Shown here: positions 2,267-24,300 of the stretch, one piece after another
How positions within the stretch are numbered: the stretch's first letter is position 1
Layout of the letters: each line of letters starts with the position of its first letter
Assembly: GCA_036001465.1 (NCBI GenBank)
Contig: DASYUH010000008.1
Span: forward strand, 1 to 54,583
Direction of reading: 5' to 3'
From: Candidatus Polarisedimenticolia bacterium
GTDB taxonomy: Bacteria > Acidobacteriota > Polarisedimenticolia > Gp22-AA2
DNA: 54,583 nucleotides
The notes under the pieces: model-generated
The model's input: the letters and a program-made list of their open reading frames with translations, nothing else
Told to the model about the DNA's origin: nothing
The model's database searches: none
Position numbers and translations under genes: made by a program

Positions 2267-3157
2267 TTATAGGCCCGGCGGAGGCCCTTCATCAAGATTC
2301 CGCTCTGCCCGGGCCTTGAGGGCGGCGTTCATCTGCTCGAAACCGGTTCGCGTGGCGGTGAGGTGTGTCCGCCTCAATATCGGAACGAGCAGGCCCCGGA
2401 ACCTCTCTCGCTGGGAAAAGCGCACGCGGCCCGGCTCGAGGGGGGCGATGTTGAAGACGTGCTCCCCTTCGAACATACCCGGGACGCGCGAGCGGCCCCA
2501 CCAGCGCAGTTCCCGGCGCGGGTCGGCTCGCAGGATGAGCGGACTGAATCTCATCAGGCGGCCGTCGGGGAATCGCGTCGCAACGGCGAGTCTCGTCCCG
2601 GGCCGGAGATCGCCTTGAATGGCGATCAGGAACGGGTTCCAATCCGGATAGGCGGTGAAGTGGGTCAGCACCTCCCACACGCGGCGAGCGTCGGCGGCGA
2701 TCTCGATGTGGGTATGGATGGCGCCGGACCAGAGCCGCGCGGGCGGAGCGGGGAGGACGGGGAACGCGGCGGGGTCGTGATCGATCGCGCCCGTCGCCGC
2801 CATCCGGCGGGCCATGTCCTGCCGCGCCCCGACCGAGGCGAGCAACGAACGAAGATCGAGGCGGCGCGCGAGGTCCGGACCGACGGCGGCCAGCTTCTCC
2901 GTCCCCTTGCTGAAGAGGGCGACGGCGCCCCCGGGCCGTCCGCACTGGAGCTTGTGAAACCCTGCGGCGACCTGGATCAGGCCGTGAAGCAGGAGGCGGT
3001 CTTCTCCATCTGCGGTGCGCCAGGCGTCCTCCCAGACTTCATGGGCTTCGAAGAACTGGCGCTCGTTGAACAGGGCGATCCCTTCATCCAGGGCCTCGAT
3101 GAGGGAAGTTGGCAAGCGGGAGCCCTCGGCCGGCGGCGCGCGCGACGTCCATCGCAC
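2267..3157 (-). CDS. DUF309-SRPBCC fusion protein
   Basis: Two domains are joined in 296 residues. Residues about 18-120 match the DUF309 helical family, with the motif F-N-x5-F-E-A-H-E-V-W-E-D-x-W near residues 30-46. Residues about 146-285 look like an SRPBCC/START-like ligand-binding domain (H-I-E-I start, Y-P-D-W-N-P-F, then alternating strands and a long C-terminal helix). Such domains bind hydrophobic ligands; no reaction can be named. The start is GTG 3157, close to an extended -10 at 3170-3178. The gene is divergent from the ACT-domain gene at 3229 and ends 223 bases from the integron array. Confidence 0.75.
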   Translation of the reverse strand: MRWTSRAPPAEGSRLPTSLIEALDEGIALFNERQFFEAHEVWEDAWRTADGEDRLLLHGLIQVAAGFHKLQCGRPGGAVALFSKGTEKLAAVGPDLARRLDLRSLLASVGARQDMARRMAATGAIDHDPAAFPVLPAPPARLWSGAIHTHIEIAADARRVWEVLTHFTAYPDWNPFLIAIQGDLRPGTRLAVATRFPDGRLMRFSPLILRADPRRELRWWGRSRVPGMFEGEHVFNIAPLEPGRVRFSQRERFRGLLVPILRRTHLTATRTGFEQMNAALKARAERNLDEGPPPGL

Positions 3158-3169
3158 GGGTCGCGGCGG

Positions 3170-3178
3170 ATTGTATCA
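3170..3178 (-). promoter_or_regulatory. Extended -10 promoter element for the DUF309-SRPBCC gene
   Basis: The minus strand reads TGATACAAT, an extended -10 (TG-N-TACAAT). The predicted transcript start is near 3163, six bases before GTG 3157. No good -35 hexamer stands 16-18 bases upstream, as is typical when the TG extension is present. Confidence 0.4.
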
Positions 3179-3213
3179 GGAGGCTCCTGGGGCGGCGCGA
3201 CCCGATCCTGATC

Positions 3214-3219
3214 TACAAT
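3214..3219 (+). promoter_or_regulatory. -10 element for the ACT-domain gene
   Basis: TACAAT ends ten bases before GTG 3229, which predicts a transcript start about three bases before the codon. No convincing -35 element is present, so the call rests on the hexamer and its position. Confidence 0.3.
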
Positions 3220-3228
3220 CAGCGCACC

Positions 3229-3765
3229 GTGAGACGCCACTTTGTACTGACCGCCATCGGAAAAGACCGGCCCGGGATCGTCGCGGACCTGGCGGAGATG
3301 GTGTTCGATCTCGGCTGCAATCTCGAGACCAGCAGCATGATCAATCTCGGGAGCGAGTTCGCCACCATGATGCTGTTCTCGGGCCAGGGCGACGACCTGG
3401 GGCAGCGCCTGCACATGGCGTGCAAGCACCTGGAATACGAGAAGGAGATGACCATCTTCGTCAAGCCGGTCGGGGAGGGGGCGTCTCCCGCCTCGCCTCC
3501 GGGGGGGCGCGCCTTCCGCATGCGAACCATGGGGGAGGACAAGGCGGGTATCGTGGCGCGCACGGCGCGGCTGATCGCCGATGCCGGCGGCAACATTCTC
3601 GAGCTGACGTCTCATCTGAAAGCGGCGCCCGCGTCGGGGACGCCGCTGTACGAGATGGAGATCTTCTTCGAGCTGCCGCGCACGGCCGATATCGAGTCGC
3701 TGCGCGGGCGCCTGGCCGCCATCGAGCAGTCCCTGCACATCGACATCACGCTCTCGCCCGCCTGA
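3229..3765 (+). CDS. Tandem ACT-domain protein (GcvR-like)
   Basis: This 178-residue protein holds two ACT domains (about residues 1-85 and 95-175), each opening with a strand and a D-R-P-G-I-V or D-K-A-G-I-V ligand-binding turn. This layout is that of GcvR, the accessory repressor of glycine cleavage in enterobacteria, and of related ACT-ACT sensors that bind amino acids. It lacks a DNA-binding or catalytic domain. GTG 3229 is chosen because the first ACT strand starts right after it and a -10 hexamer lies just upstream; a longer frame from 3109 overlaps the divergent gene. The acyltransferase gene follows seven bases after the stop, so the two are probably one operon. A regulatory role for that lipid locus is inference. 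Confidence 0.72.
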   Translation: MRRHFVLTAIGKDRPGIVADLAEMVFDLGCNLETSSMINLGSEFATMMLFSGQGDDLGQRLHMACKHLEYEKEMTIFVKPVGEGASPASPPGGRAFRMRTMGEDKAGIVARTARLIADAGGNILELTSHLKAAPASGTPLYEMEIFFELPRTADIESLRGRLAAIEQSLHIDITLSPA

Positions 3766-3772
3766 TCGCTGC

Positions 3773-4732
3773 ATGACGAGCGACGGGGTTCCGGCGCCGG
3801 CGGAAGACCGCGGCGCGCGGCCTGGGCGCTGGTACACGCACGGCTGGAACCGCGACCTGTCCTGGCGCCTGATCCACGCCATCATCCCGCGCGTGCCGCG
3901 CGTCCTGCGGCCCCCCATCCACCTCGTGACCACGCTCATCTGCTTCGCCGCCATGTCGCGCGAGAGGAGTGCGGTGCGGCGGAACCTCGAGCGGGTCACC
4001 GGACGCACGGGGCCGGGATCCATGCTGCAGGCCTTCCGGCTGTTCTACAACTTCAGCAAGTTCATGGTCGGCTACACGGATCTCATGCGCCTGAGTCCCG
4101 AAGAGCTCCGTCTCCGGATCGAGTGCGGCGAGGAGCTGACCCGCCGGTTCATGGCACTCCTTTCGGAAGGGCGCGGCCTGATCGTGCTGACCCTGCACCT
4201 CGGGAACTGGGAGGTGGGGCTGGCGCACGTGGCCGGCCTGGGGCCGCCGGTCAACGTCGTGCTGCGGCAGGAGGACTCGGAGGCGGCCCCCTTCGAGGCT
4301 GAGGCGCGCGCCCGGGCCGGCGTGCGCGTCGTGTCGGCGGGGGAGTCGGCCTGGAACGGGCTCGACCTGCTCCTGTCGCTCCGGCGCGGCGAGATCGTGG
4401 CGATCCAGGGGGACCGGCCATTCGGCCCGCAGACCGAGCGGATCGATCTGTTCGGCGCCCCGGTCGATCTGCCGGCCGGTCCGTTCGTCCTGGCGCAGGC
4501 GAGCGGCGCGCCGATCCTTGCCGTCAGCGTGCCAATTCGGGGGCACTCCCGCTACCTCATCGCCCTGGAAGGGCCCCTGCGCGTCGGGCCCGGCCCGGAA
4601 GGGGTGCGCGCCGCCATGGAGGCGTTCGCCCGCATGATCGAGCGGTTCGTCGGCGCCTGGCCGACGCAGTGGTTCAATTTCTATGAAGTGTGGGGCGGGC
4701 CGCGCGCTGACGGACCGGAAGGACGGCGCTGA
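3773..4732 (+). CDS. LpxL/HtrB-type lysophospholipid acyltransferase
   Basis: This 319-residue protein has the acyltransferase signature H-L-G-N-W-E (His142 and Glu147, the HX4E catalytic pair) and a downstream I-Q-G-D-R-P-F motif typical of the LpxL/lauroyl transferase family. A hydrophobic helix near residues 48-62 would anchor it to the inner membrane. Such enzymes move acyl chains from acyl carrier protein to a lipid acceptor. Relatives occur in aryl polyene gene clusters, and here it shares a locus with an acyl carrier protein, ketosynthases and a glycosyltransferase, so it may attach the finished chain to a lipid. Its last 59 bases overlap the tail of the convergent ligase gene. Confidence 0.82.
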   Translation: MTSDGVPAPAEDRGARPGRWYTHGWNRDLSWRLIHAIIPRVPRVLRPPIHLVTTLICFAAMSRERSAVRRNLERVTGRTGPGSMLQAFRLFYNFSKFMVGYTDLMRLSPEELRLRIECGEELTRRFMALLSEGRGLIVLTLHLGNWEVGLAHVAGLGPPVNVVLRQEDSEAAPFEAEARARAGVRVVSAGESAWNGLDLLLSLRRGEIVAIQGDRPFGPQTERIDLFGAPVDLPAGPFVLAQASGAPILAVSVPIRGHSRYLIALEGPLRVGPGPEGVRAAMEAFARMIERFVGAWPTQWFNFYEVWGGPRADGPEGRR

Positions 4733-6224
4733 CGAGCGCCCGGTACTCGGTCTTGCCCCGGGCGTTGGTGGGGATGCGGTCCAGGAGCTCGATGTGGCGC
4801 GGCACCTTGAACGGCGCCAGCCGCACGGCGCAGGCGGCCAGGAGCGCCTCGCGCGTCAGGCCGCGCGCTCCCACGATGCAGGCGCAGACGGCCTGCCCGC
4901 GATGGCGGTCGGGGACGCCCAGGACCACCGCCTGGCGCACGCCGGGCACGGCGCGGAGCACCGACTCCACCTCCGCCGGATTCACCTTGCGGCCGCCCAC
5001 GTTGATCATCCGATCGACGCGGCCGACGATTCGAATGCGTCCCTCGGCGTCGATCCGCCCGAGGTCGGAGGTCAGGAAGCGCCCCGGCTCCAGATCGGTC
5101 CCATCCTCGGGGTAATAGCACTCGGCCACGGCCGCGCTCCGGACGCAGACGCGCCCCGTCCCCTCCTCGTGGCCGCGCTCCGGGCGCACCGTGACCTCGA
5201 CTCCGTCGAGAGGAGTGCCGACCCAGCCGTCCCCGACGATCCCCTCACGCGATCGATCGTACGAGATGCCGCCGCACTCGCTGGCGCCATAGAAGGTCCG
5301 GAGCGGCAGCCCGAAGCGCTCCTTGAAGGCGCGCGACAGCTCCTCGGGCAGGAGGGCCCCGGCCGACACGCACAGGCGCAGCCCCTTGAAGCTCTTCCGC
5401 CCCGCGGACTGGAGCAGCAACTGGAACAGGTACGGCGTGGCCGGCATGACCAGGGGGCCCGGGGACGACAACGCCTCGACGAGGAGCGCCGGCAGGGGCT
5501 GCTCCAGGAGGATCGGCCGCGTCCCCTGCAGGACCAGCATCATCAGGACGTGCGTGAACCCATAGGCGTGGCCGAGGGGGATGGCGGTCACGAGCGTGTC
5601 GTTCGGCCGGATGCCGACGGTGCGGGCGATGTGCTCCGCGTCCGCCAGGAGTTGATCGGCGGTGACCACGATGCCGCGGGGCCGGCCGGTCGTTCCGGAG
5701 GTCAGGCGGACGATGGCGGCGCCGGGACGGCCGTCGGGCCGCGCCCCGTCGCGCCCGTCGTCCGGCCTGGCGCCGCGGCGCGGAGGGATCCAGGCGTGCA
5801 GGCCGGGGAGGGAATCGCCCAGGGGCTCGGTCTCGCCCCCCTCGGGGTCGACGCGCCGATCGAACAGGCAGAACCCGGGGCGGAAGGCGCGGACGAGGCG
5901 GGAGACTTCCTCGCGCGCCAGGTCCGCGTCGGCCAGAAGCGGCACGAAGCCGCGCTTCCAGAGGGTCGCGATCGCCACGAGGTAGGCGTCGATGTTGCGG
6001 CAGGAGAGCAGGACGAGCTGACCGGAGTCGGGCTCGGCCACCTGGCGCCCCGAGGCCGTGCCGGCGCGCACCAGGCGCCGCTCGGCCCCCAGGACCAGCC
6101 GCTCGAACGAATCGACGTCGAACGCGCGTCCCGCGGGCAGAAAACGGGCCGCGTCCCTCCGGGGGGAGGCCGCGAGGCCGGTCATCAATTTGTCGTGGAG
6201 CGCCCTCGTGGGCACGCCGGACAT
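4674..6224 (-). CDS. AMP-dependent acyl/aryl ligase
   Basis: An ANL-superfamily enzyme of 516 residues. It shows the P-loop T-S-G-T-T-G-R-P-R-G near residue 174, G-A-S-E-C-G-G near 311, the hinge region D-x-G-R-I-x-I-V-G-R-x-D-R-M-I-N-V-G-G-R-K, and a C-terminal A-R-G-K-T-E-Y with the catalytic lysine near 491. It should activate a carboxylic acid as an acyl-adenylate and load it on CoA or carrier protein. With the ACP and KS/CLF genes nearby, it may supply a starter unit. ATG 6224 is preferred over ATG 6233, because the latter overlaps a TATAAT box. Confidence 0.85.
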   Translation of the reverse strand: MSGVPTRALHDKLMTGLAASPRRDAARFLPAGRAFDVDSFERLVLGAERRLVRAGTASGRQVAEPDSGQLVLLSCRNIDAYLVAIATLWKRGFVPLLADADLAREEVSRLVRAFRPGFCLFDRRVDPEGGETEPLGDSLPGLHAWIPPRRGARPDDGRDGARPDGRPGAAIVRLTSGTTGRPRGIVVTADQLLADAEHIARTVGIRPNDTLVTAIPLGHAYGFTHVLMMLVLQGTRPILLEQPLPALLVEALSSPGPLVMPATPYLFQLLLQSAGRKSFKGLRLCVSAGALLPEELSRAFKERFGLPLRTFYGASECGGISYDRSREGIVGDGWVGTPLDGVEVTVRPERGHEEGTGRVCVRSAAVAECYYPEDGTDLEPGRFLTSDLGRIDAEGRIRIVGRVDRMINVGGRKVNPAEVESVLRAVPGVRQAVVLGVPDRHRGQAVCACIVGARGLTREALLAACAVRLAPFKVPRHIELLDRIPTNARGKTEYRALVSAVLPVRQRAARPTLHRN

Positions 6225-6246
6225 GGGGCGCATTATAGGGTATTAT
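6218..6246 (+). promoter_or_regulatory. Promoter for the PHP phosphoesterase gene
   Basis: CGGACA (6218-6223, four of six consensus bases) and TATTAT (6241-6246, five of six) are 17 bases apart. The predicted transcript start is base 6253, the first base of the GTG start codon, so the mRNA would be leaderless. Confidence 0.55.
6232..6237 (-). promoter_or_regulatory. -10 element for the AMP-ligase gene
   Basis: A perfect TATAAT on the minus strand ends eight bases before ATG 6224, predicting a transcript start at about 6225. The -35 position is poor. The element lies inside the spacer of the opposite promoter, so RNA polymerase could not occupy both at once. Confidence 0.45.
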
Positions 6247-6252
6247 CAGCCG

Positions 6253-7236
6253 GTGAGCGAGATCTCCAGCGGTCCCCTCCACGCCTCCGCGCTCCGACGT
6301 TGCGACCTCCACGTGCATACCCGCCACTCCTGCTGGCGGTCCGGCCGCATCCTGCGCGCCCGGGATTCGCATGCCGATCCGATCGAGGTCTACGAGCGCG
6401 CCAGGAGAGCCGGCATGGACTTCGTGGCGATCACCGACCACGAATCGATCGACGGCTGCCTGGCCCTCCTCGATGCGCGACCCGAGCTGGAGCCCGAGGT
6501 CATCGTCGGGGAGGAGGTGGAGACCCGATTCCCCGATACCGGGCAGTGGGTCCACGTCAACGTCTTCGGCTTGGACGAGGCGTCGCACCGCGAGGTGCAG
6601 CGCCTCCGCCCGAGCGTCTACGACCTCGTCGGCTACCTGCGCCGGCGGCGCTTCCTGCACGTCCTCAACCATCCGTTCCTGTCGTACCGTTTCCAGAAGC
6701 GGCCGCGGGCCTATGTCGAGGAGATCCTGGATCTGTTCGATCACTTCGAGGCAGGCAACAGCACGATGTCGCCCGGGCACACCGAAGCGGCCGAAGCGAT
6801 GCTGGCCTACGCGCGGGCCGTCGGTCTGCGCAAGACGGCGGTCGCCGGGAGCGACGCGCACCAGCCGGACGACATCGCGACATCGTTCACCCTCGCTCCC
6901 GGCGTCACGGCGGCGGAATGGCTCGCGAGCGTGGCGCGCGGCGAATGCTTCATCTCGACCGCCCCCATCGGGTTCCCGCGCCTCCTCGGCAACGTCTACC
7001 GCGCGGTGGGCTCGTACTACCTCGATCTCGCACGGGGGCCGGGGCGCGCCGGCATGACACCGGGCAACTACCTGGCGGCCGCCACCTTCCTTCCCGCCGC
7101 GACCGTCCTCGGTCTCCCGGCGATCCTGACCTGCCTGAACGAGGCGAGGCAGCGCAGCGTCCTGGCGCTGACGCGCAGGAGCCTGGCCCGGATGGCCGCC
7201 TCCGAGTCGCCGGCCCCCGCCGAAGCGCTGGACTGA
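6253..7236 (+). CDS. PHP-domain metal-dependent phosphoesterase
   Basis: This 327-residue protein opens with the PHP motif D-L-H-V-H-T (His20, His22), followed by A-I-T-D-H-E, a H-V-L-N-H-P motif and a late G-S-D-A-H motif, together the metal ligands of the PHP phosphoesterase fold. Family members hydrolyse phosphoesters or nucleotides; the substrate here is unknown. A hydrophobic stretch near residues 275-300 is unusual for a soluble PHP protein and may bind membrane. GTG 6253 is favoured by the promoter spacing; ATG 6223 would add ten residues. It is divergent from the ligase and lies inside the lipid locus. Confidence 0.8.
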   Translation: MSEISSGPLHASALRRCDLHVHTRHSCWRSGRILRARDSHADPIEVYERARRAGMDFVAITDHESIDGCLALLDARPELEPEVIVGEEVETRFPDTGQWVHVNVFGLDEASHREVQRLRPSVYDLVGYLRRRRFLHVLNHPFLSYRFQKRPRAYVEEILDLFDHFEAGNSTMSPGHTEAAEAMLAYARAVGLRKTAVAGSDAHQPDDIATSFTLAPGVTAAEWLASVARGECFISTAPIGFPRLLGNVYRAVGSYYLDLARGPGRAGMTPGNYLAAATFLPAATVLGLPAILTCLNEARQRSVLALTRRSLARMAASESPAPAEALD

Positions 7237-7247
7237 TCCGCTGTCCG

Positions 7248-8618
7248 TCAGTACAGGTAGGGGTGTCTCCCGGCCCGCTGCATTTTTCGGAAGATCAGGT
7301 TCGCCGTCAGGTAGTGCATCTGGATGGCGAGGTTGCGCGGGGCGGGCGGGAAGAAGCGGCGCAGGATCGAGCGCATGCTGAAGAAGTCGCGGTAGGTGGC
7401 CCAGAATTTCAGCTCGGCCATCTCCGGCGTCATGCGGTTCGGACGGATGACGGCGCTGCCGTAGTGGTAGCGGTTCCAGTCCCGCGTCAGGATCCGCCCC
7501 TCCTTCTCCATCCGGTCGTGGAACGGCGTCCCGGGATACGGGATCGGCAGGTGGAACTTCGCCATCGGCACCTTGTTGCGGATGAGGAACTCCAGCGTCC
7601 GGTCGAAGTCGGCGGGGTCGTCGTCGTCCAGGCCGATCATGATGAGGGCGACGATCTGGATGCCGCGGCGGCGCAGCAGGCGGATGAGGCGGGCGTACTC
7701 GCGCGCCGTGGCCCACGGCTTGTTGATGCCGTCGAGGTTTTCCTGCTTGATGGTCTCGAAGCCGATGGAGAGGAGAAAGCATCCGCTCTTCGCCGCGAGG
7801 TCGAGCATCTCCTCGTCCTCGGCGACCTGGACCGTGCACTGGCTGCACCAGCGCATCTCCTTCGGGATCATGGCGCGGAACAGCTCCTTCGCGTACCGCC
7901 GGTCGGCCACGGGGTTATCGTCCATGAACAGGATGTTGCGCGACCCCCTGGCGCGGATGGCGTCGACGTCCTGGAGCACGTCGCCGATGGGCCGCTTGCG
8001 ATAGGTCCCTTCGTGGAACTGGGTGATGCAGCAGTAGTCGCAGCGGAACGGGCAGCCGCGCGTCACGTAGAGCGGGAACTGGAAGTAGTAGTCGCGGTAC
8101 ACCTTCTCGCGCATCAGCTCGGGGCGCCAGAGCGGCAGGTGGTCCAGGTTCGGCCGCGGCAGGCCCGCGAGGTCGTGGAGCTTCTCTCCCCGGTAGACGC
8201 GGCGGGCGAAGCCGCCGCTCTGGAAGTCGGCCAGGAGAGCCGGCCAGGCGAACTCCGCCTCCCCCTTGACGACGGCGTCGCAGTGCTCGAGGGCCTGCTC
8301 CGGGTTGAGCGACACCCATTCGCCCCCCATGACGACGGGGATGCCGCGCGCGCGGTAGCGATCGGCCAGCCGGTAGGCCCGGCCGATCTGGAGCCCCATC
8401 GCCGTGATGCCGACGAGGTCGGCGTCGGTGTCGAGCGGGGGCTCGCGCATGAAGTCGTCCACCATCTCGACCGCGAAATCGGGCGGGGTGAGCGCCTCGA
8501 GGTGCACCAGCGTGAGAGCCGAGGTCCAGTAACGCTCGACGCGCGCCACCCGGCCGTCCGCCTCGAAGTGGCTCGCCGAGATGAGGAGGATTCTCGGCCG
8601 GCCACGGCGGGCGTTCAT
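7248..8618 (-). CDS. B12-binding-domain radical SAM protein
   Basis: This 456-residue protein has an N-terminal cobalamin-binding-like Rossmann domain (about residues 8-135, with V-V-M-G-G-E-W near 95) and a radical SAM domain with C-P-F-R-C-D-Y-C (Cys189, Cys193, Cys196) for the 4Fe-4S cluster. A C-terminal helical part carries the P-Y-P-G-T-P motif seen in this class. Members do methylations, ring closures or other radical chemistry on unactivated carbons; the substrate cannot be read from sequence. The start ATG 8618 overlaps the stop of the glycosyltransferase by four bases (ATGA), so the two are translationally coupled and probably act on the same lipid product. Confidence 0.83.
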   Translation of the reverse strand: MNARRGRPRILLISASHFEADGRVARVERYWTSALTLVHLEALTPPDFAVEMVDDFMREPPLDTDADLVGITAMGLQIGRAYRLADRYRARGIPVVMGGEWVSLNPEQALEHCDAVVKGEAEFAWPALLADFQSGGFARRVYRGEKLHDLAGLPRPNLDHLPLWRPELMREKVYRDYYFQFPLYVTRGCPFRCDYCCITQFHEGTYRKRPIGDVLQDVDAIRARGSRNILFMDDNPVADRRYAKELFRAMIPKEMRWCSQCTVQVAEDEEMLDLAAKSGCFLLSIGFETIKQENLDGINKPWATAREYARLIRLLRRRGIQIVALIMIGLDDDDPADFDRTLEFLIRNKVPMAKFHLPIPYPGTPFHDRMEKEGRILTRDWNRYHYGSAVIRPNRMTPEMAELKFWATYRDFFSMRSILRRFFPPAPRNLAIQMHYLTANLIFRKMQRAGRHPYLY

Positions 8619-9319
8619 CGGCGGCCCATCCAGAGACGCAGGACCGTCCCGACGATCCGGAACGTGTCGCGCAGCGGGCGATAGTGGCTGGTGGCCCTGC
8701 CATCCACCACGCGCAGCCGGATCGGGACCGAGGCGATCGGGAGCTTTCGGGCCGTCGCCTGCATGAGGGCCTCCATCTCCGCCTCGTAGCGCCGTCCCGA
8801 AAGGCGCAGGTCCTCGAGAAAGCCGGCGTCGTAGAGGCGGAAGCCGCTCTGCGAATCGGGCAGGTTGGCCCCGGTGAAGAAGCGCAGCGACGCCGAGGAG
8901 AATCGGTTCATGGCGCGGCGCGGCCCCCACATCTCGGCGAACTGGCGGTCGCGCGATCCGACGATGATCGCGGGGCGCTCGCGGCGGTGGAGCTCGACGA
9001 ACGCGGGGATATCGTCCGGATCGTGCTGGCCGTCGGCGTCGAGCGTGATGACCGCGTCGAGCGCCCGCTCCCCCCCGGCCCCGCCGGGCCGCGGGGCGCA
9101 ACTCTCCGCCCGCAACGCCTCGAAGGCGGTCGTCAGCGCGGCCCCCTTGCCGAGATTGGATGGATGGCGGATGACCTCGGCCCCGGCCCGGCGGGCGGCC
9201 TCCGCCGTGTCGTCGGCCGAGCCGTCGTCCACCACGATGGTCCGGGGGACATGGCGCCGGGCCGCGGCGACCACGGGGCCGATGGTCTCCTGGGCGTTCA
9301 ACGCCGGAATCACGACCAC
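8615..9319 (-). CDS. Family 2 glycosyltransferase
   Basis: A GT-A fold glycosyltransferase of 234 residues resembling dolichyl-phosphate mannose synthase. It has V-V-I-P-A-L-N at the N-terminus, V-V-D-D-G-S-A-D-D-T, the metal-binding D-A-D-G-Q-H-D near residue 90, and a Q-S-G-F-R-L-Y motif. No membrane helices are present. It should transfer a sugar from a nucleotide donor to a lipid. GTG 9319 is the only reasonable start after the ACP gene, 34 bases upstream. It lies between the ACP and radical SAM genes in one minus-strand operon. Confidence 0.83.
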   Translation of the reverse strand: MVVIPALNAQETIGPVVAAARRHVPRTIVVDDGSADDTAEAARRAGAEVIRHPSNLGKGAALTTAFEALRAESCAPRPGGAGGERALDAVITLDADGQHDPDDIPAFVELHRRERPAIIVGSRDRQFAEMWGPRRAMNRFSSASLRFFTGANLPDSQSGFRLYDAGFLEDLRLSGRRYEAEMEALMQATARKLPIASVPIRLRVVDGRATSHYRPLRDTFRIVGTVLRLWMGRR

Positions 9320-9353
9320 GAGGTGTCTGTCCGCGTGGGGCCTGCGGCCGGGA

Positions 9354-9626
9354 TCAGGAATCGGCGCGCTTCCCGGCCACGAACTCGGCGAGGCTGTCGA
9401 CCGATTTCAGGATGCGCCGGCCCTCCGCGACGTCGGCGATCTTCAGGCCGTACTCCTTCTCGATCCCCACGACGAGCTCGAGGAGATCGATCGAGTCGAG
9501 GTCGAGCCCGCCGCCGACCAGGGGCGCGTCGTCCGCGATGGATTTCGGATCGACCTGCTCCAGGCGGAGCCGGCGGACGATGAACTGCTTGAGCTCTTCG
9601 TGGAGCGCACCGTTGTTGCCCGACAT
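9354..9626 (-). CDS. Acyl carrier protein
   Basis: A 90-residue carrier protein with four predicted helices and the phosphopantetheine site D-L-D-S-I-D-L-L-E-L, where Ser45 would carry the prosthetic group. It is distinct from a housekeeping AcpP in sequence around the site and in its setting beside ligase, KS/CLF and glycosyltransferase genes, so it is probably dedicated to this pathway. It heads the minus-strand operon ACP-GT-radical SAM and has its own promoter at 9639-9667, only about six bases of leader before ATG 9626. Confidence 0.85.
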   Translation of the reverse strand: MSGNNGALHEELKQFIVRRLRLEQVDPKSIADDAPLVGGGLDLDSIDLLELVVGIEKEYGLKIADVAEGRRILKSVDSLAEFVAGKRADS

Positions 9627-9638
9627 GGCGGAATCGCC

Positions 9639-9667
9639 CTTATACCAGAGACGGCGGGCGGTTGCAA
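9639..9667 (-). promoter_or_regulatory. Promoter for the ACP operon
   Basis: On the minus strand TTGCAA (9667-9662) and TATAAG (9644-9639) are exactly 17 bases apart. The predicted transcript start is near 9632. The -35 hexamer is a perfect palindrome and is shared with the opposite promoter. Confidence 0.6.
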
Positions 9668-9690
9668 TGACGCCGACCGTCGTCTAGACT
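9662..9690 (+). promoter_or_regulatory. Promoter for the dehydratase-KS-CLF operon
   Basis: TTGCAA (9662-9667) and TAGACT (9685-9690) are 17 bases apart, giving a leader of about 52 bases that includes a strong Shine-Dalgarno sequence. The -35 element is the same six bases used by the ACP promoter on the other strand. Confidence 0.5.
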
Positions 9691-9748
9691 GGCACGCGCC
9701 TCTCCGAACGCCCGCACAGGCTCCGGCCGGGGCGCGGGAGGTCCGCGC

Positions 9749-10201
9749 TTGAGCCAGGCCGCCGGTCCGCCGCACGCCCACCCGTTCCGGATGATCGACC
9801 TCGTGCTCGAGCTCGATCACGGCATCTGCACCACCGTGAAATCGGTCACCTCCGGCGAGGGGGTGCGGGACGACCCCGCCTCTCCCGCGGGCTACCCCTT
9901 CTCGCTGCTGCTCGAGGTGATGGCGCAGGCGGCCATCCCCCTGGCGGGCGAGGACGGGACCGGACATCGCGGCGAGCGCCCTCCGGGGTCTCCGGCGGGC
10001 GGAGCCCTGGTCGCCATCGACGAGGCGCGGCTGCTGGGGCCGGTGCACTACGGCGATCGACTCCTCGTCACCGCGTCCCTCGTCGGGGAATTCGGCGACA
10101 TGATTCGCCTCAAGGCCCGGGCCGAGCGATCGGACGCTCCGCCGGGGGAGGGGATCGTGGCCGAAGCGGAGTTCACCATCGCCCTGGAGGGGGCGTCTTG
10201 A
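9749..10201 (+). CDS. Hot-dog dehydratase-like protein (FabZ/ApeP type)
   Basis: This 150-residue protein has the hot-dog fold of 3-hydroxyacyl-ACP dehydratases: H-P-F-R-M-I-D near the start and L-L-L-E-V-M-A-Q-A in the central helix, with the expected Glu. The usual G-H-F-P stretch with the catalytic His is replaced by A-G-Y-P-F, so it may bind or dehydrate by another route, as in the ApeP-like branch found in aryl polyene clusters. GGGAGG at 9736-9741, seven bases before, selects the TTG start at 9749. Its stop overlaps the ketosynthase start (TTGA). Confidence 0.68.
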   Translation: MSQAAGPPHAHPFRMIDLVLELDHGICTTVKSVTSGEGVRDDPASPAGYPFSLLLEVMAQAAIPLAGEDGTGHRGERPPGSPAGGALVAIDEARLLGPVHYGDRLLVTASLVGEFGDMIRLKARAERSDAPPGEGIVAEAEFTIALEGAS

Positions 10202-11412
10202 CGCGGCGCGTGGCGATCACCGGCGCCGGCGTCGTGTCGGCCCTCGGCGCGACGGCCGCCGCCACGTGGGAGGGGATCGTCGCCGGCCGGACCGGCATCG
10301 GCCCCGTGACGCTCTTCGACACCTCGGCGGATCGCACCCACACGGCGGCCCAGATCACCGGCTTCGATTTCGACGGGCCGTTCACTCCGCGGGAGCGCGC
10401 CCGCCTGTCGCGCGGGGACCGGCTCGGGCTCCACGCCGCGCTCCGGGCGCTCGAGGACGCCGGGCTCGACCCGGCCCGCGTCGGCGGGCGCCGATCCGGC
10501 TTGCTGATGGGGGGCGGCGGGACCGGACTCCCGCAGGGGGAGGAGTACTTCAGAAGGACGCTCGCGGGGGTTGAGCCGAGGCCCTCGTCGGCCCTCGGGT
10601 TTTTCCAGGCGGCCACCGCCGACGTCATCGCCCTGCGGCTCGGCCTGCGCGGCCGGGTGCAGACGATCATGAACGCCTGCTCCTCGTCCACCATCGCGAT
10701 CGGGGTGGGCGCCTCCCTGATCGCCCGCGAGGTCCAGGATCTCGTCGTGGCGGGTGGAGTGGAGACGCTGTCGCGCACGACGTTCTCGGGATTCAACTCC
10801 CTGCGGCTCGTCGACCCCGATCCGTGCCGCCCCTTCGATCGCGACAGGCGCGGGCTGTCGCTGGGGGAATGCGCGGCCTTCCTGATTCTCGAGCCGCTGG
10901 ACGCTGCGCGGAAGCGCGGGGCCCGGGTCTACGGCGAGGTGGCGGGAAGCGGCATGTCGGCGGACGCCTATCACCCGACCGCGCCCGACCCCGGTGGGGC
11001 CGGCCTGGTCCGCTCGATGCGCGCCGCGCTGCAGTCCGCGAGGGCGGGCCCCGGCGAGGTCGACCACATCAACGCCCACGGAACCGGCACCGAGCAGAAC
11101 GACGCCGCCGAGGCCTGCGCCATCAGGGCCCTGTTCGGCGCCCGGGCGCCGCGCATCCCGGTCGTCTCGATCAAGGGGGCTGTCGGTCACTGCCTGGGGG
11201 CCGCGGGGGCGATCGAGGCGTTCGCCGCGGTGATGTCGCTCCACCACGGGATCATCCCGCCGACGACCGGGCTGCGCGAGACCGGTCCCGACTGCGATCT
11301 CGATGGCGTCCCCGGAACGTCGCGCCCGGCCGCGCTGCGCCTCGTCCTGTCGAACTCGTCGGCCTTCGGCGGCAACAACGGGACCCTCGTCCTGCGGCGG
11401 ACCGAATCGTGA
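10198..11412 (+). CDS. Beta-ketoacyl-ACP synthase (FabF-like, active)
   Basis: A thiolase-fold condensing enzyme of 404 residues with the full catalytic triad: Cys161 in N-A-C-S-S-S, His294 in N-A-H-G-T-G-T and His331 in K-G-A-V-G-H-C-L-G. It should extend an ACP-bound chain with malonyl-ACP. Start TTG 10198 overlaps the previous stop and has a GGAGGGGG sequence just upstream. A second, triad-less homologue is encoded two genes on, so this is the KS half of a probable KS/chain-length-factor pair, as in aryl polyene and type II polyketide systems. Confidence 0.88.
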   Translation: MTRRVAITGAGVVSALGATAAATWEGIVAGRTGIGPVTLFDTSADRTHTAAQITGFDFDGPFTPRERARLSRGDRLGLHAALRALEDAGLDPARVGGRRSGLLMGGGGTGLPQGEEYFRRTLAGVEPRPSSALGFFQAATADVIALRLGLRGRVQTIMNACSSSTIAIGVGASLIAREVQDLVVAGGVETLSRTTFSGFNSLRLVDPDPCRPFDRDRRGLSLGECAAFLILEPLDAARKRGARVYGEVAGSGMSADAYHPTAPDPGGAGLVRSMRAALQSARAGPGEVDHINAHGTGTEQNDAAEACAIRALFGARAPRIPVVSIKGAVGHCLGAAGAIEAFAAVMSLHHGIIPPTTGLRETGPDCDLDGVPGTSRPAALRLVLSNSSAFGGNNGTLVLRRTES

Positions 11413-11858
11413 AACCCAAGCAGCGGCCGTTCACCGTTCTGTTCGTGTGCACGGGAAACGCGGCCCGCAGCCAGATGGCGGAAGGGCTCGCCGGGCACCT
11501 GGGGAAGGGGCGCATCGAGGCGCACAGCGCCGGCACGCGGCCGGCCGGCATGGTCATGGCGGCCGCCCGGGCCGTCATGAAGGAGCGCGGCATCGAACTG
11601 GTCAGGCACTTCTCCAAGGGGCTCGACGCCGTGCCGGGGCCGTTCGACCTGGTCATCACGCTCTGCGACTCGGCGGTCCAGGAATGCCCCGCCGCACTCG
11701 TCGACGGGGCGCACGAGCACTGGTCCACACCCGATCCGACCTTCACCGAGGGCGGCCCGGACGAGGTCCTCGAGGCGTTCCGGCAGGTGCGCGATCGCCT
11801 GGAGGCGCAGATCACGGCGCTGATCCAGAGGGTGCGGCCCCAGGAGAAAAAATCGTAG
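11409..11858 (+). CDS. Thioredoxin-type arsenate reductase / LMW phosphatase fold protein
   Basis: A 149-residue protein with the phosphate-binding loop C-T-G-N-A-A-R-S (Cys14, Arg20) and the aspartate loop D-P near residue 109. Cys86 and Cys93 in L-C-D-S-A-V-Q-E-C-P have the 72- and 7-residue spacing of Cys10, Cys82 and Cys89 of staphylococcal ArsC, so all three redox cysteines are present. By family it reduces arsenate using thioredoxin. GTG 11409 overlaps the KS stop (GTGA) and the CLF gene follows after 17 bases, an odd place for an arsenic gene. Confidence 0.82.
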   Translation: MKPKQRPFTVLFVCTGNAARSQMAEGLAGHLGKGRIEAHSAGTRPAGMVMAAARAVMKERGIELVRHFSKGLDAVPGPFDLVITLCDSAVQECPAALVDGAHEHWSTPDPTFTEGGPDEVLEAFRQVRDRLEAQITALIQRVRPQEKKS

Positions 11859-11875
11859 GCGATCGGGGCGGAGCC

Positions 11876-13102
11876 ATGAGACCGATCGGATGCCGGGTGA
11901 TCGTCACGGGGGGAGGTGCGGTCAGCCCGTTCGGGGCCGGCGTGGAGCCCCTCGTCCTCGGTGTGTCGTCTGGCCGGAGGGCGCAAGGGCGGACCGACGG
12001 CGGGCGCGTCGCCCGCGTGCCACCGGCCGCGGTCGCCGCCTGTCCGTTCGGGGCGAACGCCTGGCGCCGCCTCGACCTCGGATCGAAGATGGCCGCCGCC
12101 GCGGCGTACGAGGCGCTGCAAGCGGCCGGATACCCGGCGGAGATCCCGCGCCCCGCGGACGACGCCGGGATCGCCACCCTCCTCGGAACGATGACCGCCG
12201 GGATCGAGACGCTGCGCGCCTTCCTCGGGGCCCTCTTCCGCGAAGGGCCCGAGAGCGTCTCTCCGATGCAGTTCCCGTTCACGGTCCCGAACGCTCCGGC
12301 AAGCCAATGCTCGATCCTCCTGGGACTCCAAGGGCCCAACCTGACGATCTGCGAGATGGAAGCCTCGGGACTGGCGGCGGTCGCCACGGCCGCCGACCTG
12401 ATCCGCAGCGGCGCGATCGAGGCGGCCGTGGCCGGCGGCGTGGACGAGCAGTCGGAGACCTTCGGCCGCGCCTGGGCGCGTCTCCGCCTGACGCACCGCG
12501 GCAACCCGGAGACATTCCCGGGCCCCTTCGCCAAAATCAGGCGGGGCTTCATGCCGGGGGAGGGGGCGTACCTCCTGGTGCTCGAATCCATCGATCGGGC
12601 GCGCCGGCGCGGCGCCGAGCCCTGGGCGGAGGTGGTGGGGGAGTCGATGACCCACGGACGCGCGGCGGCCCACGCCTGGTCGCGCGACGCCGAGGAGGTC
12701 GCCTCGGCGATCCGGGAGACGGTGACGCGGGCCGGCCTGCGGCCGCGGGAGATCGGCTATGTCGCGGCGAGCGCCAACGGCACCCGCGACATCGATGCGG
12801 CCGAGGCGCGCGCCCTGCGCCTGGCGTTCGGCGACGAAGCGCGCCGGGTGCCGGTGACCTCGGTGAAGGGGTCGATCGGGGAATCGGCCGCCGCGTCGGC
12901 CTGCTCCGCGCTGGTGGGGGCGGTGTCGATCCGGGACGGCTTCATCCCGCCGCTGGCGGGCCTCGTGGAGCCCGACCCGGACCTGGGGCTCGACCTGGTC
13001 ACACGGGACGCGCGTCGTGAGCGTGTGCCGTCGGTCCTGGTCCACGCGCTCGGAACGGGCGGCAGCGCCTGCTGCGTCATCCTGACCCGCGCCGAGGCGT
13101 AG
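11876..13102 (+). CDS. Catalytically dead ketosynthase homologue (chain-length-factor-like)
   Basis: This 408-residue protein aligns with the KS at 10198 along its length, but the three catalytic positions are changed: the Cys is Glu162 (C-E-M-E-A-S-G), the first His is Asn301 (S-A-N-G-T) and the second His is Glu336 (K-G-S-I-G-E). Loss of all three shows it cannot condense by itself. In type II polyketide and aryl polyene systems such a partner (CLF) forms a heterodimer with the KS and shapes chain length, though classical CLFs carry Gln at the Cys position. ATG 11876 follows a GGGGCGGAG sequence. Confidence 0.82.
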   Translation: MRPIGCRVIVTGGGAVSPFGAGVEPLVLGVSSGRRAQGRTDGGRVARVPPAAVAACPFGANAWRRLDLGSKMAAAAAYEALQAAGYPAEIPRPADDAGIATLLGTMTAGIETLRAFLGALFREGPESVSPMQFPFTVPNAPASQCSILLGLQGPNLTICEMEASGLAAVATAADLIRSGAIEAAVAGGVDEQSETFGRAWARLRLTHRGNPETFPGPFAKIRRGFMPGEGAYLLVLESIDRARRRGAEPWAEVVGESMTHGRAAAHAWSRDAEEVASAIRETVTRAGLRPREIGYVAASANGTRDIDAAEARALRLAFGDEARRVPVTSVKGSIGESAAASACSALVGAVSIRDGFIPPLAGLVEPDPDLGLDLVTRDARRERVPSVLVHALGTGGSACCVILTRAEA

Positions 13103-13138
13103 GGCTTCTAGGAGCGTGTCCTCGGGGCGAACGAGTCC

Positions 13139-13504
13139 TCAGGTCCCCGCCTCGGTGTCGGGCCGCTCACGGCGGGCGTCTTCCAGGATCTCCCCCGAGT
13201 CCTTCGCCTCCCCCTCCGGCACGTAGATGGCGAACGAGGTGGTGACCGGGACCATCAGGCCGGCGGACAGGAGGAAGTTCTCCTCCGCATCGATCGGATG
13301 GGGGACGCCGCTCTCGTCGTAGTAGGCGAGGACGGGGTGGAGCCCGGCGCTCTGCAGGAGACCGTAGGCGACGGCGGCCTCCTCGCGCAGCGACTCGACG
13401 GCGATCGGAAGCGAGCCTGCCAGCAGGCTGCCGCAATCAGGGCAGGGGGTCACGCTGCGCGGAATGGAGGCATCGCAGGTGGGACAGCGGCTGCCATTCT
13501 CCAT
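13139..13504 (-). CDS. Zinc-ribbon protein with DUF2007-like C-terminus
   Basis: A small protein (121 residues from ATG 13504; ATG 13513 adds three). Two Cys pairs (C-P-T-C and C-P-D-C) near residues 6-24 form a zinc ribbon. The rest, with an alternation of A-Y-G-L-L-Q-S-A-G and V-P-V-T-T-S-F-A-I-Y-V-P, resembles the DUF2007 putative signal-transducing fold. It is the last gene of the metG-tatD group, about 27 bases after the tatD stop. Function unknown. Confidence 0.6.
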   Translation of the reverse strand: MENGSRCPTCDASIPRSVTPCPDCGSLLAGSLPIAVESLREEAAVAYGLLQSAGLHPVLAYYDESGVPHPIDAEENFLLSAGLMVPVTTSFAIYVPEGEAKDSGEILEDARRERPDTEAGT

Positions 13505-13531
13505 GGACCGCATGCTACGCCGCGCGGCGCA

Positions 13532-14299
13532 TCACGTCAATCGGAAGGCCCGCTCCAGGTTGCGGGTGGTCGCCTCGCCGACCTGCCCGGGGGAGAGGCC
13601 CTTCAGGGCCGCGAGCTTCTCGACGACGTGGACGACGCGCGCCGGCTCGTTGCGCTTGCCGCGAAAGGGGTGCGGCGTCAGGTACGGCGCGTCGGTCTCG
13701 CACAGGAGCCGATCGATCGGGGCGCGGGCGGCGGCCTCGGCGAGGCTCCCCGCGTTCTTGAAGGTCAGGGGCCCGGCGAACGACAGGTAGAAGCCGAGGT
13801 CGAGGCAGCGCGCCGCCTCGTCGGGCCCGCCCGAGAAACAGTGGAAGACGCCGCCGATCTCCGAGCCGCGCTCGTCGCGCAGGATCGACAGCGTGTCGTC
13901 CCACGCCTCGCGGGTGTGGATGACGATCGGCAGGCGCACCTCCCGCGCCAGGGCGATCTGATCGCGGAAGGCCCGGCGCTGGTCCTCGCGGGGCGAGAAA
14001 TCGTAGTGATAATCGAGGCCGATCTCGCCGATGGCGACCGCCTTGGGGCGCGCCGCCGCCTCACGGATCGTGGCCGCGATCGCGGGCGTCCAGTGCTTCG
14101 CCTCGTGCGGGTGGACCCCGGCGGTGAAATGGATGAAGTCGTGCCGCGCCGCCAGGTCGGCGCACGCCGCCGCGTCGCCGATGAACGAGGAGACCGTGAC
14201 CAGGCGCTCGATCCCCGCCGCCCGAGCGCGCGCGATCACCTCGTCGCGGTCGGGGTCGAAGTGCTCCAGCGTCAGATGGGCGTGGCTGTCGCTCAGCAA
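13532..14299 (-). CDS. tatD: TatD family metal-dependent hydrolase
   Basis: This 255-residue TIM-barrel hydrolase starts D-S-H-A-H-L (metal ligands His6 and His8) and has G-E-I-G-L-D-Y near residue 95, I-H-T-R near 126, the H-C-F-S-G segment near 152 and E-T-D-A-P-Y near 205, all characteristic of TatD. TatD acts as a 3'-5' exonuclease in DNA repair and D-aminoacyl-tRNA quality control has been reported for relatives. It begins six bases after the metG stop, a pairing seen in many bacteria. Confidence 0.92.
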   Translation of the reverse strand: MLSDSHAHLTLEHFDPDRDEVIARARAAGIERLVTVSSFIGDAAACADLAARHDFIHFTAGVHPHEAKHWTPAIAATIREAAARPKAVAIGEIGLDYHYDFSPREDQRRAFRDQIALAREVRLPIVIHTREAWDDTLSILRDERGSEIGGVFHCFSGGPDEAARCLDLGFYLSFAGPLTFKNAGSLAEAAARAPIDRLLCETDAPYLTPHPFRGKRNEPARVVHVVEKLAALKGLSPGQVGEATTRNLERAFRLT

Positions 14300-21364: not shown

Positions 21365-24300
21365 TCAGCGCTTCCTATGATCGCCGCCCGATGTAACGAA
21401 GTTACCCTCTTCGCCCGGGCAACCCTCTTCACACGATGAGGGCTCGGAGGGCATCGGCACCACCTCCGTTCCGAATCCGGTCGGTCCGTGGCCGTCCCGG
21501 TACTGAACGAGGTAGAAGAGCGCCCGACCGGCCGACGGAGTCGCGCCCGAATCCTCGAACGAAGTTAGGAGAGTTCGCCGCGCAGGGACGCGCACAGCTC
21601 CCAGGGAGATTCGGTTGCTCTCCGCCCGCAGGGAGGACACGTCTCCCGCGATGAGGTCGTACGAGGCCGCCCCAGTGACGGCATTCCAGTAGATCCGGGC
21701 CGTGCCCGCGGATGCTCCGGGCTCCAGCCGGAGGTGCAGCGGCTCCGGCCCATCCCCCTCATCGTGGGGCACCCGCACCACGGAGAGCGCCGTGGTGGAG
21801 TTCCCCGATGCGTCGGTCGCCGAGTAGAGCAGCTCGTATGTCCGTCCCGCACCGTCCCCCGAACGCTCGGCGCGCAGCAGAAGCTCCGCATCGGGCAAGC
21901 CGGCGTCCATTCCGGCGACGTCCCCCGTCGTCCGACCGTCTCCGTCGCCGGGGGCGTCATCCGGCTCGGAGCCGGCCACTGAGACGAGTCGCACGCTCAC
22001 CGCCCCGTCGCATCGGTCGCCGGCCTGCCACCCCACGCGCACAGGGACGAGACGGTGATTCGGCGGCCACAGGACCGACGGGTCCGTGGCCAGCGTGAGC
22101 GAAGGGGGAATGGTGTCCTGCACGACGATCTCCGTCTGGACCATCCCCGTCGCGCCCGCGTGGTCCGTGACCCGGACCCCGATCGCATGCCTGCCCAGCG
22201 GCAACGTGGTCTGGAGGACCTGGCCCGTGCCGATAGCCTGCTCGTCCGCCTGGCCAGGGTTTCGCAGCCACTGGAACAGCACGATGTCGTCGTTCGTGCC
22301 GGGAGTCGAGTCCGCGTCGGTCGAGGCCGAACCGTCGAGAGTGATCGCCCCGCCCGCCGGGCCGGTGCACTCGATGGTCGTGGGCGCAGCGATGGCCGCG
22401 AGGGGCGGGGCGTTCGGTCGCACGAACACCAGGCGCGACTCTCCCTGCGACTCGAAGGTTGTCTCGACCTTCACGGGGACCGTGTTGCCGTCGGTCAGCG
22501 TGAGCACCAGGTGGTAATGGCCGCCCGCGTGAAGGCTCGAAATGTCGATCTGCGACGGCAGTCCGGAGTCCAGGATCACGCCGAGGACGCTCGTCTCCTC
22601 CTGGGTCGTCATCCGGAGCGAGGAGTCGTCGAAGCTTTCGATGATCAGGTCGATGTCCGCCGCGCTGCCACTGGTGGCACGCGCGCAGATCGCCGCAGGC
22701 AAGGGCCGATCAGTGAGGGGCATGACTGGGTCGAACACCGCGCCCGGGTCGCCGCATGGGCCGGGCGCCAGGAGATAGTCTGGGACCCGATCCCCGCAGC
22801 CGAGAATCGAATCGAGATCGAACAGGTACGGCGCTCCCGTCGCGCCGAAGGTGAATCCGATGCCTTGTCCCGAGACCCCCGACGGAAGGAGTCCGTGGCT
22901 GCAATCCGGAATGGCCAGGACGTCCGGGAGGACCACCGTGTGCGGAGCGAACGCCAGGATGTCCAGCGATCCTCGGAGCGTCTCGTTCTGTGGATCGGTC
23001 GCGGTCAGGGAGACTTTCAGGGCGTCTCCCGCGTGCTCGATGCCGAAGAGGACGAGTGTCGGCTGGCACGCGTCTCCGGACCCGTCTCGATCGGCATCGG
23101 CCTGATCGGAGTTGGCGGCCGCTGCGCAGTTGTCGCAGGCGTTTCCCAGGCCGTCGCCGTCCGTGTCGAGCTGGTCGGGGTTCGGCACCGGGCAGTTGTC
23201 GACCTCGCCGCACGCGCCGTCGCCGTCCTTGTCGTCGAACGGGTCGTGCGGGCAGGGGTCGCACGCATCGCCGAGGGAATCAGAGTCGGCGTTCTCCTGG
23301 CCTGCGTTGGGCACCAGAGGACAATTGTCGGATGGGCAGGAATTGTTGATGTACCTCGGGTCGTGCAGGCCGTCCCCATCCCTGTCGGTGCACGGGTCAC
23401 AGGCATCCCCGAGGCCGTCCAGGTCTCCGTCCATCTGGTCCGGGTTGTAGTGCTGCGGGCAATTGTCGGCAGGGCAGGTGTTCGCGGGAACCGAGGGATC
23501 ACCACGTCCGTCCCCGTCGCTGTCCGAGCAGGAATCGCAGGCGTCACCGATCTGGTCATGGTCGCCGTCGGCCTGGTCGGGGTTCGGCACCGTCGGGCAG
23601 TTGTCGCGTGCGCAGGTCATCCCGATAAAGCCTGGATTGCCGAATCCGTCACCGTCGGTATCGGTGCAGGAGTCGCAGGCATCCCCAACACCGTCACGGT
23701 CGTTGTCGTCCTGGGACGTGTTCCTGACGTTCGGGCAGTTGTCGAGGTTGCAGGTTCGTCCGGTGGACGGATTTCCGAACCCGTCCCCGTCCGGGTCGGT
23801 GCAAGGGTCGCAGGCGTCCCCGATGGTGTCGTGGTCGGTGTCCTCCTGCTGAGGGTTGGTCACGGCCGGGCAGTTGTCGAGCATGCATGTCCGGCCCGCG
23901 CCCGGGCTGCCGAACCCATCGGCGTCCTGGTCGTTGCAGGGGTCGCAGGGGTCCCCCGTGCCGTCCTGATCGGCATCCTCCTGCTGGGGATTCGCAACCT
24001 CCGGACAATTGTCCGGCGCGCAGGTCAGGCCGGGGCCGGGGCTTCCGAGACCGTCGCCGTCCGGGTCGTTGCAGGAATCGCAGGAATCTCCCGTGCCGTC
24101 GTGGTCCGAATCCTCCTGTCCGGAATTCGTGATGGCGGGGCAGTTGTCGCAGGCATCGCCTGTTCCGTCACCGTCCGTATCGGCCTGCGATGGATCCGCC
24201 GCCGTAGGGCAGTCGTCCGCTGGACATGTATTGGCCGGGAAATCCGCATCGCCGAATCCATCTCCGTCCTGATCGGTGCAGGGGTCCATCCCGTCCGGCA

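Follow-up and report, generated by a model that had tools for sequence, protein, structure and literature searches.

A probable reduced and divergent aryl-polyene-type lipid locus with a cobalamin-type radical SAM enzyme in gp22-like Acidobacteria

Genes and transcription units of the locus

We examined a putative lipid biosynthesis locus of a soil-type Candidatus Polarisedimenticolia bacterium (Acidobacteriota; assembly GCA_036001465.1, contig DASYUH010000008.1); the window is the whole 54,583-nucleotide stretch analyzed. Open reading frame (ORF) calls together with Pfam and NCBIfam found all ten genes named in an original prediction made from the sequence alone. These are, over 3773–13102, an LpxL-type acyltransferase, an AMP-forming ligase, a PHP-domain hydrolase, a B12-type radical S-adenosylmethionine (SAM) enzyme, a family 2 glycosyltransferase (GT2), an acyl carrier protein (ACP), a FabZ-like protein, a ketosynthase (KS), an ArsC, and a dead KS that we call the chain-length factor (CLF). 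All their reading frames are intact (Table 1). The prediction had opened the locus at 3229, which is instead the start of a gcvR-like ACT-domain gene. That flank is common to loci L042 and L040, is found also at the matching site in the related genome G006, and is probably a conserved neighbor outside the pathway.

The genes form four transcription units rather than one operon: the acyltransferase on the plus strand; the divergent AMP ligase (minus) and PHP hydrolase (plus), whose starts lie in a common region; ACP, GT2 and radical SAM running leftward from 9626 to 7248; and FabZ-like protein, KS, ArsC and CLF running rightward from 9749 to 13102. The latter two units face away from an intergenic region that is presumed to hold the promoters of both; a scan of it for a sigma-70-like site found none. 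The KS and ArsC genes overlap in the sequence GTGA. The 3' ends of the acyltransferase and AMP-ligase genes run into each other, so that 59 bases (4674–4732) are coding on both strands. As had also been predicted, no ketoreductase, ammonia-lyase, thioesterase or MMPL exporter was found, either in Pfam and NCBIfam scans of 2267–14299 or among the remaining window ORFs, inspected by eye. The His, Asp and Glu metal-ligand positions of the PHP hydrolase are invariant across 7 relatives.

Table 1. Coordinates, strands and supporting evidence for features of the locus
Feature	Position	Strand	Evidence
gcvR-like double-ACT protein	3229..3765	+	Pfam ACT_6/ACT
LpxL/HtrB-type acyltransferase	3773..4732	+	Pfam Lip_A_acyltrans, 72.8 bits
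AMP-forming acyl/aryl-acid ligase	4674..6233	-	Pfam AMP-binding and AMP-binding_C
PHP-domain metallohydrolase, CehA/McbA type	~6208..7236 (start codon uncertain, 6187-6253)	+	Pfam PHP above cut-off, NCBIfam CehA_McbA just below cut-off
Cobalamin-type (class B) radical SAM enzyme	7248..8615	-	Pfam B12-binding and Radical_SAM
GT2, polyprenyl-phosphate-sugar-synthase type	8615..9319	-	Pfam Glycos_transf_2
ACP, ApeE type	9354..9626	-	NCBIfam PRK09184, 70.4 bits (cut-off 70)
Intergenic region between two divergent units	9627..9748	.	ORF layout
FabZ/ApeP-like hot-dog protein	9749..10201	+	FabZ-like, E=3e-9; 5e-14 with family profile
KS, ApeO clade, Cys-His-His intact	10198..11412	+	Alignment and tree
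Thioredoxin-type ArsC (LMWPc)	11409..11858	+	TIGR02691 below cut-off; CX5R and two further Cys retained
Dead KS, CLF-like	11876..13102	+	Cys-His-His replaced by Glu-Ser-Glu; alignment and tree

Ketosynthase clade and aryl-polyene relatives

A KS/CLF tree was built from 41 sequences. The window KS, its five orthologs and the KSs of cousin clusters described below join Escherichia coli ApeO with support of 100/99, bearing out the predicted likeness to aryl-polyene clusters. A separate clade, also supported at 100/99, unites the FabF proteins, among them that of the window's genome itself. Two Streptomyces KSs and chain B of the two-KS complex PDB 9s5h, used as a reference, make up another group (95/93), and the window CLFs cluster with the cousin CLFs (95/93). 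The Cys-His-His active site of the KS is kept in 6/6 orthologs; in the dead KS, four copies of which were read at these positions, Glu takes the place of Cys, Ser or Gly that of the first His, and Glu that of the second. Assignment of the KS to housekeeping FabF, one of two outcomes that the original prediction named as refuting it, was rejected, both from its place outside that clade and from its score with the fabF model (364 bits against a cut-off of 494).

Aryl polyenes (APEs), membrane-bound yellow pigments, belong to the most widely distributed natural products of bacteria. Against the E. coli APE proteins, the ACP is 44.6% identical to ApeE, the KS 34% to ApeO, and the AMP ligase 24% to ApeH. 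The GT2 aligns to the N-terminal half of ApeJ (8–233, E=5e-14) and the acyltransferase to its C-terminal half (293–558, E=2e-13). ApeJ is listed as a glycosyltransferase/acyltransferase, with a proposed role in helping to anchor the polyene to lipid (PMC8253772); a glycosyltransferase is thus a standard APE part. With the APE clusters of E. coli CFT073 (apeA-R) and Xenorhabdus doucetiae (PMC8253772) the locus shares an ApeO-type KS and dead KS, an ApeE-type ACP, an AMP ligase, the GT2 and LpxL-type acyltransferase that match the ApeJ halves, and the FabZ/ApeP-like protein. Unlike them, it is without ketoreductase, thioesterase, MMPL exporter, LolA, ApeR, ApeI and methyltransferase, adds the B12-type radical SAM enzyme and the PHP hydrolase, and has its GT2 and acyltransferase as separate genes.

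Three cousin clusters in other genomes carry APE markers, and for this reason we count the window locus as one of the APE-type systems. In G006, which belongs to the same family, one locus contains ACP, KS, CLF, FabG, methyltransferases, acyltransferase, chorismatase and PHP hydrolase (51%). G030, of the same class, combines an acyltransferase (40% to that of the window), ACP (52%), KS, CLF, GT2, polysaccharide deacetylase, Tes-like radical SAM and AMP ligase with an aromatic ammonia-lyase and both ApeP-like and ApeI-like dehydratases. G024, also of the class, has ACP, KS, CLF, GT2, FabG, MMPL and AMP ligase. The chorismatase, ACP, KS, CLF, FabG, acyltransferase and PHP set of G006 recalls the xanthomonadin-type clusters, with their XanB2-type chorismatase supply of starter (PMC3949708), and at the genomic site of the window locus G006 also carries orthologs of its ACP and AMP ligase; the window's genome differs from these clusters in having no chorismatase match.

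That site in G006 (L083, contig 81, 3.5–8.7 kb) holds ArsC (69%), FabZ-like protein (38%), ACP (79%) and AMP ligase (64%), with no KS, CLF, radical SAM enzyme, GT2, PHP hydrolase or acyltransferase. Since the ArsC ortholog is there without KS and CLF, it is the site, not the KS/CLF pair, that ArsC goes with; it is probably a resident, co-transcribed gene and not a pathway enzyme. It is the only ArsC copy in the window's genome, and most genomes of the class have one. These same points led us to drop the idea, raised by the position of ArsC between KS and CLF, that an arsenolipid is made. The original prediction regarded the gene set as unusual; this holds for the radical SAM enzyme and the missing APE functions, and not for the GT2 and acyltransferase (the ApeJ halves), ArsC (at the same site in G006) or PHP hydrolase (within the G006 cluster). 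As a separate observation, a halogenase-like flavin adenine dinucleotide enzyme, a polyketide-cyclase-like protein and a DUF1330 protein replace KS, CLF and radical SAM at L083, marking the site as a hot spot of gene turnover.

The radical SAM enzyme and conservation among relatives

The CxxxCxxC motif of the radical SAM enzyme is invariant. With the B12-binding and Radical_SAM Pfam domains both above cut-off, this motif and the fold place the enzyme in class B, and cobalamin binding is predicted. It does not reach the cut-off of any named NCBIfam family (BchE and HpnJ come closest), and membership of the ladder-type lipid-biosynthesis family TIGR04072 was rejected (79.8 bits against a cut-off of 360). 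This score, and the lack of phytoene-desaturase genes at the locus, also set it apart from the anammox ladderane/polyunsaturated-fatty-acid-like clusters (PMC2649909), which resemble it in having KS together with KS-like paralogs without the active-site Cys, a B12-type radical SAM enzyme, a CoA-ligase and glycosyltransferase genes.

Fold comparison of an AlphaFold2 model, including a Foldseek search, gave AprD4 as the top match (Z 27.0, root mean square deviation 3.4, 397 aligned), followed by CysS (23.6, 3.8, 403), MgmA (22.6, 3.6, 365), TsrM (21.6, 3.6, 392) and TokK (17.6, 4.3, 410). CysS and TokK are cobalamin radical SAM structures solved with pantetheinylated substrates. Most of the cobalamin-dependent fold relatives are methylases, AprD4 excepted, and methylation is therefore the likeliest reaction. 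Cystobactamid CysS, which acts on carrier-bound aminobenzoate, shares the overall fold of the model and, like the window enzyme, has a ligase and a carrier as partners; the two enzymes are about 15% identical.

In a sister family, G009 and G011 have the radical SAM enzyme (72–73%), GT2 (53–55%), ACP (63–65%) and AMP ligase (~40%) in one run, with a PHP paralog and a gene for a Tes-like radical SAM protein close by; neither KS nor CLF was found near this run. Since the enzyme accompanies the ligase and ACP even where KS and CLF are absent, its substrate is suggested to be the ligase-loaded ACP or a glycolipid, not the elongating chain.

The Tes-like gene has surroundings of its own. In this order its conserved neighborhood consists of LpxC-like, NtrY/NtrC-like, Rrf2-like and often PHP-like genes (L101, L102, L103, L105, L106, L066, L067). 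In G008, G009 and G011 the AMP ligase and GT2 lie on its other side, joined in G009 and G011 by the ACP and radical SAM enzyme. The APE-like cluster of G030 (L107, contig 26, 2.6–13.5 kb) holds that genome's only homolog found of the tetraether lipid synthase Tes.

Five other genomes of the family (G001, G003, G004, G005 and G007, the last on a short contig) have the same gene order as the window locus, together with its flanks wherever the contig reaches. The genes thus stay together in relatives, contrary to the other outcome that the original prediction named as refuting, with losses in some that are taken up below. Identity to the window among genus mates is highest for the radical SAM enzyme (85–88%), followed by ACP (78–86%), KS (73–80%), GT2 (71–75%), acyltransferase (72–74%), AMP ligase (71–73%), PHP hydrolase (67–70%), FabZ-like protein (56–60%) and CLF (55–64%); the radical SAM enzyme is the best conserved gene of the locus and CLF the least conserved and least constrained. 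The ratio of nonsynonymous to synonymous substitution rates (dN/dS) is 0.14–0.45 across all genes measured, so purifying selection is general; for the radical SAM enzyme it is 0.14–0.19 within the genus, near the value of the neighboring metG. This range, taken with synteny in five other genomes, indicates that the block is more than a chance assembly. A search of genome contigs for the radical SAM enzyme found only four relatives. In G003 (L043, 3962–8149) the PHP and radical SAM genes are separated by the insertion of a 1395-residue subtilase that carries carboxypeptidase-regulatory-like and carbohydrate-binding domains.

A second KS/CLF locus lies on contig 71 of the same genome (L044, 28.4–33.6 kb), with ACP, KS, CLF, FabA-like protein, FabG, a third KS and a DUF1702 protein, adjoined by LolA-like and ABC genes. 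Its dehydratase-reductase-third KS order is that of E. coli ApeP-ApeQ-ApeR, and it is patchy in relatives. Within the class, the third KS matches one sequence closely (63%) and two others weakly (37–40%); a model in which the two loci work together was rejected, as G003, G004, G005 and G006 have no match to it. Two open frames on contig 53 (L001, L003), 2836 and 2136 residues long, contain KS domains and suggest a modular type I polyketide synthase. Elsewhere in the window (21365–31096) an open frame of 3243 residues with many aspartate-containing repeats (DxDGxGDxCD type, FG-GAP-like) is probably a giant surface protein.

Proposed pathway and alternatives

We read the locus, with a probability of roughly 0.55, as a reduced, divergent APE-type (type II KS/CLF) lipid pathway of gp22-like Acidobacteria, with a proposed route from ligase through radical SAM enzyme and KS/CLF to GT2 and acyltransferase. 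Because several defining APE features are absent, it is not filed as an aryl-polyene cluster, only as working like one. Its product is probably a chemically altered relative of aryl-polyene lipids; the glycosylated acyl lipid of the original prediction is plausible from the genes present. The gene set and its synteny, the purifying selection, the clade of the KS, the state of the active sites and the separability of radical SAM, GT2, ACP and ligase are direct observations; the acid, every chemical step and the product as given below are inferred.

In the first step the AMP ligase would load the ApeE-type ACP with a carboxylic acid, which the B12-type radical SAM enzyme would modify while it is bound there, most likely by C-methylation. 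KS and CLF would then extend it with malonyl units; ketoreduction might be performed in trans by the FabG of fatty acid synthase, and dehydration by the FabZ-like protein with a partner or by housekeeping FabZ. The GT2 would make a sugar-lipid acceptor, onto which the LpxL-type acyltransferase would transfer the chain from ACP, as proposed for the ApeJ halves, and the PHP hydrolase may trim a phosphate or ester intermediate. The fuller claim, that a cobalamin radical SAM enzyme inside an APE-type pathway modifies the ACP-bound starter or chain to give a C-alkylated or radical-tailored polyenyl or acyl glycolipid of an undescribed lipid class, is tentative, and we put the odds somewhat against it.

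Several observations weigh against an APE-type pathway. Neither a ketoreductase nor a thioesterase, exporter, second KS (ApeR) or aromatic-starter gene is present at the locus. The window scans and ORF lists gave no RND/MMPL or Lol-like export genes either; the ketoreductase, thioesterase and export functions may be supplied in trans. The window has no aromatic ammonia-lyase, the rest of the genome not having been searched for one, and the genome-wide lack of a chorismatase match was noted above. In alignments the FabZ-like protein keeps the Glu and, as in ApeP, lacks the catalytic His of the GHFP motif; with no ApeI-like partner within the locus, the ApeI/ApeP dehydratase pair is incomplete. 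In the KS/CLF tree the ApeO branch is long and the references are few.

The main alternative, which we think unlikely, is that no polyene is made: AMP ligase, ACP, GT2 and radical SAM enzyme would turn an ordinary or branched fatty acid into a modified acyl-glycolipid, with KS and CLF adjusting chain length and the FabZ-like protein no longer a dehydratase. The missing His fits this, as do the lack of a ketoreductase in the window and of a chorismatase in the genome, the existence of the module without KS and CLF in G009 and G011, and the CLF, which besides its weak constraint is broken in two relatives (a frameshift in G004, shortening and a frameshift in G003). Yet the KS falls in the ApeO clade, its active site is intact and it evolves under purifying selection, and the cousin clusters of the class are APE-like.

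There is other damage as well. The G004 acyltransferase has a stop close to its end, and G005 has no GT2 and a radical SAM gene cut to about its first 53 residues. Along with the CLF lesions and the missing APE functions, this could mark a former aryl-polyene cluster decaying in this family, the least probable of the explanations we considered. The window frames are intact, dN/dS is 0.14–0.45 in all genes measured, and the radical SAM enzyme and ACP are highly conserved; moreover, the damaged copies come from metagenome assemblies, in which errors are possible. Unless these assemblies hold errors, the losses in G003, G004 and G005 also mean that the parts are not strictly interdependent, which weighs against the proposed route.

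Two further points against the proposed route concern the radical SAM step: the model has a mean pLDDT of 72, which is only moderate, and its best fold match, AprD4, is a dehydratase and no methylase. The enzyme might instead perform other lipid chemistry (ring formation, dehydration or cross-linking), possibly tied to the Tes-like homolog, and yield an unusual membrane lipid. The AprD4 fold match, the family matches, which include BchE and HpnJ and are all below cut-off, and the Tes-like protein beside the G009 and G011 runs and inside the KS/CLF/GT2 cluster of G030 support this. We hold it to be improbable: in the window's own genome Tes lies on another contig beside LpxC-like and NtrY/NtrC-like genes, as in the other family members examined, and as Tes occurs in most genomes of the order its neighborhood may be incidental.

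The core of the locus is of an already known kind and its composition is new. The real departures from APE clusters are the missing functions, the FabZ/ApeP-like protein without catalytic His, and the radical SAM enzyme; in the literature searched we found no account of aryl polyenes and a radical SAM enzyme in one pathway. The module of radical SAM enzyme, GT2, ACP and ligase is able to exist independently of the polyene synthase. If it is true that the radical SAM enzyme acts on an ACP-bound acid, the locus would be a compact system in which radical reactions of carrier-bound substrates could be tested, from a phylum that is for the most part uncultured.

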